DNA of 64,000 nt. Origin: Oceanotoga teriensis (GTDB lineage: Bacteria; Thermotogota; Thermotogae; Petrotogales; Petrotogaceae). This document shows positions 52,286-55,486 of the stretch, piece by piece. The DNA lies in contig NZ_QGGI01000005.1 in assembly GCF_003148465.1 (NCBI RefSeq), positions 62,001-126,000 on the forward strand, given 5' to 3'. Numbering within the stretch: the stretch's first letter is position 1; each line of letters opens with the position of its first letter. Made by a program: the position numbers and the translations under genes. Below the pieces are notes generated by a model. The model was not told where the DNA came from, ran no database searches, and saw nothing but the letters and a program-made list of their open reading frames with translations.

Positions 52286-52768
52286 ATGTCATTTTATGAA
52301 TTATCAGCAAAGACTAATATGGGTATAAACAAAAACATGAGTGAGTATAAAGGAAAAGTCCTATTAATAGTAAACACTGCGAGTAAATGTGGTTTTACTC
52401 CACAATATGAAGAATTACAAGAACTTTATGAAAAATATAAAGGAAAAGATTTTGAAATACTTGCATTTCCATGTAATCAATTTGGCGAGCAAGAACCTGG
52501 CTCAAATGAAGAAATTAGAAGTTTCTGTAAATTAAATTATAATGTAACTTTCCAACTATTTGATAAAATAGATGTAAATGGAGAAAATACTCATCCAATA
52601 TACAAATACTTAAAATCTGAAGTAAAGGGTCTTTTAAATAGTGAAGATATAAAATGGAATTTCACAAAATTTCTTTTAGATAAACAGGGCAATGTAGTAA
52701 AAAGATATGCTCCTATAAAAAAGCCACTTTCTCTATCAAAAGATATTGAAAAATATTTAAATAAATAA
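52286..52768 (+). CDS. Glutathione peroxidase family protein (cysteine type)
   Basis: The enzyme reduces peroxides with thioredoxin or a similar thiol donor. The 160 residues contain VNTASKCGFTPQY with the peroxidatic C35 (cysteine rather than selenocysteine), AFPCNQFGEQEPGS with the Gln, and KWNFTKFLLDKQGNVV with the Trp-Asn pair. The start is the ATG at 52286, with GAGGTGG four to five bases upstream; an open frame to 52211 runs through the promoter. Confidence 0.93.
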   Translation: MSFYELSAKTNMGINKNMSEYKGKVLLIVNTASKCGFTPQYEELQELYEKYKGKDFEILAFPCNQFGEQEPGSNEEIRSFCKLNYNVTFQLFDKIDVNGENTHPIYKYLKSEVKGLLNSEDIKWNFTKFLLDKQGNVVKRYAPIKKPLSLSKDIEKYLNK

Positions 52769-52810: not shown

Positions 52811-52870
52811 GCAAAAGTTTTAAAATGAATATGATAAAATATATAAAAAGTGATTAAAAAGGAGAAACAA

Positions 52871-53593
52871 ATGATAGATATAATATCTGTATCTGATGAA
52901 GAAGTCACATTAAAAAACAGAGAAAACAAAAATTATGATCTATTGATTGGATGTGGAGACCTTTCACCTGGATATATGGACTATGTAAATAATGAATTCA
53001 AGCCTTCATTGAGTATAATGGTACATGGAAATCATGATAAAAAATACTTCCCAGAAGTATACAAAGAAGAAAATGAAAAATATTCTGATATATATAAAGG
53101 TTTTCTTGTTCTAAATAAAAGTCTCATAAACCTAAAAAGATACATAAAAAAAGATATCAATATAATGGCCTTTTCAGGAGCTTTATCATATGGAATAAAA
53201 CCATTTCATATATCTGAAAAAGACACTGCAAAATTCAAAAGAGATATTAACATAAAAATGCTTCTAAAAAGAATTAAAAATATAGACATAGTAGCGACAC
53301 ATAATCCGCCTCTAATAGAAAACACAATAAAAAAATTTGATAGATATCATATACCTTCAAAAAATTTCGGTGATATGTACAAACAAATATTTCCTAAATT
53401 ATGGTTATATGGACATATACACAGAGCTTATACTATAAATCAACTTGATTTTAAATTAAGAAAAGAAAATATGATATCCTATATGATAAATTCAGTTCCT
53501 TATCAAAAAATAAAATATGATGAAGAGAAAAAAATTATTCTTGAAATAAAAAGATTAAAAGCTACAAAAACTAAAGAGATAGTTTTAAAATAA
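52871..53593 (+). CDS. Metallophosphoesterase-like protein with an altered first metal motif
   Basis: The calcineurin-like fold shows LIGCGDLSPGYMDY (GD box), MVHGNHDKKYF (GNHD box), DIVATHNPP and LWLYGHIHRA (GHxH box). The first box, normally D-x-H, reads VSDEEV, so one metal ligand is changed and the activity may be lost or altered. The 240 residues have no signal peptide. ATG 52871 has AAGGAG upstream. It lies 15 bases before the ParB/BMP fusion, so the two are cotranscribed. Confidence 0.78.
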   Translation: MIDIISVSDEEVTLKNRENKNYDLLIGCGDLSPGYMDYVNNEFKPSLSIMVHGNHDKKYFPEVYKEENEKYSDIYKGFLVLNKSLINLKRYIKKDINIMAFSGALSYGIKPFHISEKDTAKFKRDINIKMLLKRIKNIDIVATHNPPLIENTIKKFDRYHIPSKNFGDMYKQIFPKLWLYGHIHRAYTINQLDFKLRKENMISYMINSVPYQKIKYDEEKKIILEIKRLKATKTKEIVLK

Positions 53594-53608
53594 TTTGGGG
53601 GATTAAAA

Positions 53609-55486
53609 ATGTACAATAATAGAAATAAACTAACAGATGAATATTTAAAAGCCAAAAAAATTGGAAAAAAAGACTTTATAAGTAAAATTAGTTCTGGAAA
53701 AGAAGGTTATTTACCATCCTTAGAAAACATAATAGAAAATGTTGATATAATAAGGGAAGAAGATCTCGGATTAGTTGATATACCTTTAGAAAAAATTCAA
53801 GGTACTTACTATCATTCAAGAGCTTTATCCTTTGCAAATAATTTTTACCCAATATTCGATGAAAAAACAGAATTTTCTATAAAATGGATAAATCTATTAC
53901 AAATTCAATATGAAGAAGGTATAAGAGATCCAATAGAAGTTTATGAATATCTAAACTGGTTCTACGTTGTAGAAGGTAATAAAAGAGTCAGTGTTTTAAA
54001 ATATGTAAATGCCTATTCAATACAAGCAAAAGTGAAAAGACTCGTTCCAAAATGGGATCCAGATGATCAAGAAATAAAAATATACTATGAATTCTTAAAA
54101 TTTTATAAAAAAACAAAAATTAATGAGTTATGGTTTACAGAAGAAGGAAAATTTGCTCAAATGTATGACATAATAAAAACTCACAAAACTCAAAATTCTC
54201 TTATAAATGATAAATATAAAGATTTCATAACAACTTATTTCATACCTTTTAAAAAAACTTATAATATAATTGGTGGACAAAAATTAAAAAAATCTGCCGG
54301 CGATGCTTTTTTAAAATATATAGAAACATATGGATTAATAATAGATTCAGACAATAAAATATTCAAAAATAAGGTAAAAGAAATAATAAAAGAAATAGAA
54401 AGAGAATCTGGTACAGAAGGATTAAATATATGGCAATTACCAAGAATATTATTCACAGGTGAAACAAAAATAAAAGTAGCTTTCATATATAATACTGGAA
54501 TAAATGAATCTGCATGGACTTATTCGCATGAAATAGGCAGAAAATACGTTCAAGAAAAATTTAAAAATGAAATAGAAACAAAATCTTTTGAAAATATAGA
54601 TAATATAAAAAAATTCAAAGAATTAATGGAAAAAATTGAAAAAGAAGATTATAAACTAACTTTCTCAACAAGTTTTGACTACTTAAATGAACATAAACAA
54701 TCTCAATTTCAAAATGTAAAATTCCAACATTTTTCTGGATATCAAACACAAGAAAATATAAACACCTACTTTGGAAGAATGTATGAACCAAGATATTTAA
54801 CTGGAATAATAGCCGGATTAAAAACAAAAACAAATGTAATAGGCTATGTAGCTCCTTTTGGCATACCTGAAGTAATAATGGGAATAAATGCTTTCGCCCT
54901 TGGTGTAAAATCAGTAAACCCTGAAGCAAAAATTTGGATTGGATGGACAAACTCTTGGGCAAATAAAGAATATGAAAAAAGAACAACAGAATATCTTATA
55001 AACATGAAAAATTCTGATATTTTAACTCATCATCAAGACAGTGCAGAAGTCATGAAAATTGGAGAAAAATATGGAGTTTATACTATAGGATATCATTTTG
55101 ATATGAGAGAATTCGCACCAAAAACCTATTTAACTTCAGTAATATGGAAATGGGGAAAATATTATTCAAATATAATACAAGATATAATCAAAGGCTCTAA
55201 TTTTTCTTTCTTTGATTTATTTGGAGGATCCGAAGAAATTGAAAAATTCTGGGGTGGATTAAAATCTGGTATAGTGGACATAGCTCCTATGAGTAATAAT
55301 ATAAAACCTCAAACACAAAATTTAATAAACATAATAAAAGAACAAATAAAATCCGATGATAATATGATATTCAAAGGCCCTATATATGACTCAAAAAGTA
55401 ATCTTAAGATCCCAAGAAATGTACAAATAAATGATGAACAACTTATAAAAATGAATTGGTTCTTAGATAATATTTTATTTGAATAA
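53609..55486 (+). CDS. Cytoplasmic fusion of a ParB/sulfiredoxin-like domain and a BMP/PnrA nucleoside-binding domain
   Basis: No signal peptide or lipobox is present. Residues about 50-145 look like a ParB-N/sulfiredoxin fold: DLGLVDIPLEKIQGTYYHSRALSFANNFYPI and YLNWFYVVEGNKRVSVLKYVNA. A helical linker (about 150-290) follows. Residues about 290-590 form a PnrA/BMP-type periplasmic-binding-protein fold: KVAFIYNTGINESAWTYSHEIGRKYV, TGIIAGLKTKTNVIGYVAPFGIPEVIMGINAFALGVKSVNP and SDILTHHQDSAEVMKIGEKYGVYTIGYHFDM. Normal BMP proteins are exported lipoproteins; this one should work in the cytosol, perhaps sensing nucleosides. The 625 residues are complete. I have no function to give. Confidence 0.75.
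   Translation: MYNNRNKLTDEYLKAKKIGKKDFISKISSGKEGYLPSLENIIENVDIIREEDLGLVDIPLEKIQGTYYHSRALSFANNFYPIFDEKTEFSIKWINLLQIQYEEGIRDPIEVYEYLNWFYVVEGNKRVSVLKYVNAYSIQAKVKRLVPKWDPDDQEIKIYYEFLKFYKKTKINELWFTEEGKFAQMYDIIKTHKTQNSLINDKYKDFITTYFIPFKKTYNIIGGQKLKKSAGDAFLKYIETYGLIIDSDNKIFKNKVKEIIKEIERESGTEGLNIWQLPRILFTGETKIKVAFIYNTGINESAWTYSHEIGRKYVQEKFKNEIETKSFENIDNIKKFKELMEKIEKEDYKLTFSTSFDYLNEHKQSQFQNVKFQHFSGYQTQENINTYFGRMYEPRYLTGIIAGLKTKTNVIGYVAPFGIPEVIMGINAFALGVKSVNPEAKIWIGWTNSWANKEYEKRTTEYLINMKNSDILTHHQDSAEVMKIGEKYGVYTIGYHFDMREFAPKTYLTSVIWKWGKYYSNIIQDIIKGSNFSFFDLFGGSEEIEKFWGGLKSGIVDIAPMSNNIKPQTQNLINIIKEQIKSDDNMIFKGPIYDSKSNLKIPRNVQINDEQLIKMNWFLDNILFE

Follow-up and report, generated by a model that had tools for sequence, protein, structure and literature searches.

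A ParB/sulfiredoxin-fold protein with exchangeable C-terminal parts is near-obligately co-inherited with a metallophosphoesterase in three bacterial phyla

In the purine-nucleobase subgroup of the BMP/PnrA proteins, represented by the Brucella BMP lipoprotein 3s99 and by AtzT (6pi5), the guanine bound by AtzT lies sandwiched between Tyr45 and Trp194, with bonds to Ser97, Glu165, Asn218 and Asn220 (PMC6834077). Recognition of the ParB fold as a general NTP-binding switch is recent; the arginine of its GxxR P-motif is required for NTP binding, and 17 of the 28 ParB-fold proteins tested showed no NTP binding in vitro (PMC12704722). That survey was based on PF02195, and BMP/PnrA domains and phosphoesterases go unmentioned in its main text (PMC12704722). 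Here we describe a locus in a window of 64,000 nucleotides (the whole stretch of Oceanotoga teriensis DNA analysed) in which a ParB/sulfiredoxin (Srx)-BMP fusion gene follows the gene of a metallophosphoesterase (MPE). Each of these domains is known; their partnership and the domain swapping described below appear undescribed, and no published account of an MPE-ParB/Srx pair was found in the literature searched, outside which most subscription papers lay. The features of the locus are as follows.

52861-52864, forward strand: ribosome-binding site of the MPE gene, GGAG, read from the sequence
52871-53593, forward strand: MPE gene, 240 aa, the constant partner (PF00149 E=1.7e-9; best start ATG at 52871)
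52895-52903, forward strand: MPE motif I, D9-x-E11 replacing D-x-H (Glu in 96% of 91 partner MPEs)
53027-53038, forward strand: MPE metal-binding motif GNHD (G53, N54 and H55 invariant in 53 sequences)
53411-53422, forward strand: MPE metal-binding motif GHIH (G181, H182 and H184 invariant in 53 sequences)
53597-53601, forward strand: ribosome-binding site of the fusion gene, GGGGG, read from the sequence, inside the 15 bp that separate the MPE stop from the fusion start
53609-55486, forward strand: ParB/Srx-BMP fusion gene, 625 aa, ATG start, no signal peptide
53747-54049, forward strand: ParB/sulfiredoxin-fold core, roughly aa 47-147 (from the AlphaFold2 model and its Foldseek comparison with the PDB)
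53975-53986, forward strand: G123-N-K-R126, the ParB-fold P-motif (GxxR), invariant in 70 sequences
54068-54409, forward strand: helical extension, aa 154-267 (secondary structure; profile-aligned with the DUF4032-scoring region of 4Fe-4S relatives)
54470-55468, forward strand: BMP/PnrA domain, aa 288-620 (PF02608 E=2e-42; 3s99, 6pi5)
54515-54517, forward strand: W303, which aligns with AtzT Tyr45 on one side of the purine sandwich (Trp in 97 of 100 homologues)
54869-54871, forward strand: E421, equivalent of AtzT Glu165, a guanine contact (Glu in 58 of 100 homologues; the others have G, D, L or S)
54944-54946, forward strand: W446, equivalent of AtzT Trp194, the other side of the purine sandwich (Trp in 94 of 100 homologues)

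The fusion gene encodes a two-part protein, with a ParB/sulfiredoxin fold at residues 1-275 followed by a BMP/PnrA domain of the purine-nucleobase subgroup at residues 288-620. Its open reading frame is not a product of chance, because full-length identities of 41% to 61% are kept in 19 other Petrotogaceae species, and one more species has a frameshifted copy. In Marinitoga lauensis (L025/G020) the domains seem to be separated, but separate proteins were ruled out: a frameshift at an A-rich run (positions 10750-10850 of L025), a sequencing error or the mark of a pseudogene, splits the fusion gene, and its BMP part has no signal peptide. The fusion protein is, judged from its sequence, cytosolic. 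A hydrophobic-window scan of its first 70 residues found no signal peptide, the best 15-residue window scoring 0.57, against 2.0-3.6 for the N-terminal hydrophobic segments of 33 stand-alone BMP proteins of relatives. The 625 residues include no cysteine, so the protein lacks a lipobox and is not a sulfiredoxin. A first-pass annotation of this DNA had placed the fusion at 53609-55486, with the phosphoesterase 15 bases upstream, and had described a nucleoside-binding fold that stays inside the cell, joined to a ParB/sulfiredoxin-like domain. Both positions are correct, the gap being exactly 15 bp; the lack of a hydrophobic N-terminus and of cysteine bears out the intracellular location, and the two folds are upheld by the PF02608, 3s99 and 6pi5 matches on the C-terminal side and by structural modelling on the N-terminal side.

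The C-terminal half resembles the exported purine-binding proteins closely. Pfam Bmp (PF02608, E=2e-42) covers residues 288-581 and profile positions 2-291 of 301, and phmmer matches residues 284-621 to 3s99 (2.8e-57) and AtzT (6pi5; 1e-55). The closest structural relatives of the domain bind adenine and guanine (PMC6834077). Sequence alignment to AtzT assigns W303, W446, S355 and E421 as pocket equivalents and places D477 near the position of Asn220. The aromatic sandwich is kept, and S355, the counterpart of Ser97, is serine in most of the 100 homologues; position 421 is glycine in 19 of 78 clostridial and spirochaetal homologues and leucine or serine in part of the Petrotogaceae. A planar heteroaromatic ligand in this pocket is likely, and the predicted ligand may differ between subgroups or may not be a plain purine, because the hydrogen-bonding residues vary. 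The protein departs from other BMP/PnrA proteins in lacking a signal peptide and lipobox, in standing behind a ParB/Srx domain and in having no recurring ABC transporter beside it; its BMP domain also belongs to a clade of its own. All fused BMP domains form this one clade, apart from exported copies (FastTree support 0.998), which rules out independent fusions in Thermotogota and Clostridia and makes a single origin of the architecture, followed by transfer between phyla, the most likely history. Exported BMP copies belonging to this subgroup persist in other Thermotogota families.

The N-terminal half has no sequence match in Pfam or the PDB. Its AlphaFold2 model, built from an alignment of 70 sequences, is confident (pLDDT 93, pTM 0.87), and among the Foldseek matches listed against the PDB are proteins of the Noc, ParB, sulfiredoxin, PadC, SbnI and SerK types, the remaining entries being unannotated structural-genomics structures and nothing else. 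Only the Srx core agrees with these structures: the model superposes on sulfiredoxin with an rmsd of 2.7 over 88 columns, as against 15-20 for whole ParB chains. The helical part, residues 154-267, is something else; in two 4Fe-4S relatives (L105 and L109) the corresponding region scores with DUF4032 at E=1.5e-5 and 1.7e-5. Twenty-two N-domain residues are invariant in the 70 sequences, including G65-T66, R71 and E122-G-N-K-R126. With the ParB-CTPase-fold proteins (ParB, Noc and the fusions of PMC12704722) the protein shares the fold, the GxxR P-motif and fusion to another domain. It differs from them in that PF02195 yields no match above its curated cut-off (one of the 70 members scores, at E=0.11), in the absence of an HTH domain by Pfam sequence search, in carrying a BMP domain where canonical ParB and Noc have a C-terminal dimerisation domain, and in having an MPE as partner. 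Since PF02195 does not detect this N-domain family, the survey built on it would miss it (PMC12704722). SbnI, SerK and sulfiredoxin likewise share the core fold, to which the fusion adds its helical and BMP domains. SerK and SbnI are free amino-acid kinases, marked by a catalytic glutamate and an xGxHR loop.

The partner is a member of the calcineurin-like fold (Metallophos PF00149, E=1.7e-9, above cut-off) related to MPPED1/2, Dbr1/CWF19L1 and YfcE-type proteins. Its model (pLDDT 94) matches MPPED2 (E=3e-8) and Dbr1 (1e-6) by Foldseek, and its profile finds the same two among PDB sequences (Dbr1 6e-8, MPPED2 8e-7). Unlike these proteins, it is tied to a ParB/Srx protein and has D-x-E in motif I instead of D-x-H. 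Motifs II-V are invariant, with GD, GNHD, H and GHxH intact; motif I alone is altered and has lost its usual histidine. In the partners of 4Fe-4S and spirochaetal relatives the motif reads D-x-V or D-x-E, occasionally with another residue at that position. The other O. teriensis MPEs, read locus by locus, mostly have D-x-H where motif I is recognisable. An altered metal site is expected from this substitution, and the protein could be a weakened or non-catalytic enzyme, as in VPS29. The partner has 240 residues in Petrotogaceae and about 195 in Clostridia, with identity of only ~25% between Thermotogota and Clostridia. That these MPEs are not orthologous was ruled out by a profile built without Petrotogaceae members: among the 12 Pfam Metallophos matches in O. 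teriensis it ranked the partner first (8.5e-19), the next scoring 1.5e-3. Profile searches of seven genomes gave one strong match each (1e-72 or better), other MPEs scoring 1e-6 or worse.

The two genes are near-obligately co-inherited. The 103 Thermotogota genomes comprise 21 with both genes, none with the ParB/Srx gene only, none with the MPE only and 82 with neither; the carriers are all 21 of the Petrotogaceae genomes, as against none of the 82 others. In Spirochaetota, with MPE matches counted when better than 1e-35, 48 of 149 sampled genomes have both genes, 1 the N-domain only, 4 the MPE only and 96 neither (Fisher test, P=4e-33, shared ancestry ignored); in 38 of the 48 the two genes lie within about 0.5 kb, as read from the coordinates. 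A sample of 139 Bacillota genomes around G103 follows suit, with 10 having both, none the ParB/Srx gene only, 1 the MPE only and 128 neither (P=2e-14, Fisher test, shared ancestry again ignored). Across Clostridia and Spirochaetota the distance matrices of the N-domain and the MPE are correlated at r=0.84. An MPE with no detectable ParB/Srx gene occurs in G110 (contig C122, L112), G272, G284, G366 and G378, where the ParB/Srx partners are possibly unlinked or diverged.

The MPE lies directly upstream of the fusion in every Petrotogaceae locus examined. Genome contigs yielded at least 471 relatives of the N-domain, mostly from Clostridia; the 80 that were kept are nearly all clostridial, with two from Spirochaetota, and, gene fragments apart, each of these carries a fused BMP domain. 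The only recurrent neighbour is the MPE, which adjoins the fusion in 67 of 78 non-redundant loci; every other gene family recurs in 15 loci at most, and none holds a constant position in the majority. In 96 loci, the MPE is within 300 bp of the fusion in 83, but its placement differs from lineage to lineage: it precedes the fusion on the same strand in 23 loci, follows it on the same strand in 16 and is convergent with it in 48, four of the convergent pairs being more widely spaced. That the linkage persists in three arrangements speaks for a functional cause and against mere inheritance of gene order. In two Spirochaetota with a BMP-type fusion (L039/G107 and G398) the MPE is unlinked yet present, either about 20 kb from the fusion on one contig or on a separate contig. 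Upstream of the MPE in the window, at 52286-52768, is a glutathione peroxidase-like gene (PF00255, E=2.3e-45) that does not recur as a neighbour in relatives.

These results bear on the remaining proposals of the first-pass annotation. Conservation of the gene pair, on which its suggestion of a functional link between phosphoesterase and fusion depended, is strict in three phyla, so the link stands on firmer ground than the sequence of one locus could have given it. The arrangement is real but not peculiar to O. teriensis, given the hundreds of mostly clostridial relatives. The notion of a nucleotide-responsive module remains a reasonable one, with the GxxR motif invariant and the aromatic sandwich kept; its DNA-linked variant is not supported, there being no HTH by sequence and a Foldseek agreement confined to the Srx core.

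The constant core of the system is the MPE with the ParB/Srx protein, and the C-terminal part varies by lineage: BMP in Petrotogaceae and Clostridia, a 4Fe-4S domain in other Bacillota, and an OPRT-like domain or nothing in Spirochaetota. Specifically, in eight Bacillota genomes the MPE adjoins a ParB/Srx protein of 310-360 aa with a cysteine-rich C-terminal part, in which Pfam recognises a 4Fe-4S domain in three of five tested (L105, L106 and L109), L102 and L103 having a shorter cysteine set. In most Spirochaetota examined the ParB/Srx protein is bare, with nothing attached, and about 310 aa long. An OPRT-like domain is fused to the ParB/Srx protein in L165 (933-2759, Spirochaetota), and an OPRT-like gene lies directly downstream of the ParB/Srx gene in L182 (628-1473, Spirochaetota). 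The domain is probably a diverged phosphoribosyltransferase, a label that rests partly on motif reading (phmmer to OPRT E=0.023, no Pfam match). The P-motif loop reads EGNKR in BMP-type members and DGNHR in the 4Fe-4S type and in spirochaetal relatives. Replacement of the C-terminal domain while the MPE stays fits a sensor role for that domain.

The reading we favour, with a little less than even confidence, is that the ParB/Srx protein is an NTP-binding switch acting with the MPE, and that BMP is its purine sensor. The two genes would form a cytosolic module for signalling or metabolic control in which the fusion protein is sensor and switch: the GxxR loop of its ParB/Srx-fold domain would bind an NTP, and the BMP domain would close on a purine nucleobase (adenine or guanine class) or something closely related. 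The MPE would be the effector, hydrolysing a nucleotide-type phosphoester, and whether the fusion is liganded would govern the activity or location of the MPE, probably through direct contact. Elsewhere the ParB/Srx-MPE core would read another signal through an exchanged C-terminal part, be it a 4Fe-4S cluster, an OPRT-like domain or no such part at all. We infer NTP binding, purine binding, physical contact, direction of control and MPE substrate alike. The strict pairing offers a phosphoesterase as the obvious candidate effector for a ParB-fold switch and makes the role of orphan ParB-fold proteins directly testable. If the reading is right, an extracytoplasmic solute-binding protein has been re-used in the cytosol as a nucleobase sensor and exchanged for an Fe-S or OPRT-like domain elsewhere. 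The co-inheritance across three phyla points to an undescribed two-protein system for intracellular nucleotide or nucleobase sensing. There is a real chance that the module represents a new class. More tentatively, this class may be widespread, combining a ParB/Srx NTP switch and interchangeable sensors that gate a dedicated D-x-E/D-x-V MPE, the MPE possibly acting on an unknown nucleotide messenger.

Two other readings are serious rivals. The first, on balance unlikely, is a kinase with an opposing phosphatase: a small-molecule kinase of the SerK/SbnI type, with either the acceptor or an allosteric purine bound in its BMP domain, and an MPE that removes the phosphate. SbnI (5ujd, rmsd 4.1 over 91 columns) and SerK (5x0k) are indeed among the Foldseek matches, such pairs commonly co-occur, and the DGNHR loop of the 4Fe-4S and spirochaetal relatives resembles xGxHR, the loop motif of Srx/SerK-type enzymes; however, ParB and Noc match at least as well, and BMP-type members, with EGNKR, have no histidine there. 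The second, to which we give rather little weight, is nucleotide salvage or repair with no signalling, in which an MPPED2/Dbr1-like MPE would break a nucleotide that is damaged or comes from RNA, and the fusion would capture the released base or nucleoside as enzyme or carrier. MPPED2 and Dbr1 are the nearest relatives of the MPE by structure and profile, and the OPRT-like and BMP attachments are both nucleobase-related, but base capture can hardly be the shared function, because the 4Fe-4S and bare ParB/Srx versions leave this step no place.

Readings built on DNA binding or transport are not favoured. A DNA-binding ParB-like regulator that has BMP as its effector-binding part and autoregulates the MPE is improbable. 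In its favour, the fold is matched best by ParB and Noc, and LacI-type repressors use a solute-binding fold as their effector domain; against it stand the missing HTH and the core-only structural agreement already noted, and the convergent order of the pair in half of the loci is awkward for operon autoregulation. The least probable reading is a role in the cytosol as acceptor or accessory protein of a nucleoside or nucleobase ABC importer, for although BMP domains otherwise serve ABC importers and exported copies of this subgroup persist in other Thermotogota, no transporter gene recurs in the neighbourhoods of relatives, co-inheritance is with the MPE only and the fused BMP domains branch apart from the exported copies.

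A phage origin of the fusion was rejected: a scan of viral contigs with the N-domain found nothing, and the single BFVD match, A0A8S5LUW4, which seems to have this fusion too, may derive from a host. A defence system was likewise rejected. The fusion has no PADLOC match, and that of the MPE to the phage-defence candidate PDC-S10 is weak (2.8e-11) and generic, a family-level resemblance only; the MPE-fusion pair is kept in all sampled Petrotogaceae.

Some loci have further peculiarities. L170 and L172 encode tandem pairs of ParB/Srx-like proteins of ~415 aa with no adjoining MPE, the MPE pair being located elsewhere in the same genomes. In the spirochaetal loci L171 and L173 the MPE-ParB/Srx pair lies between a nadA-like gene and a NAD kinase gene (NAD_kinase_C, E=5.7e-31), so that a link to NAD is possible there.
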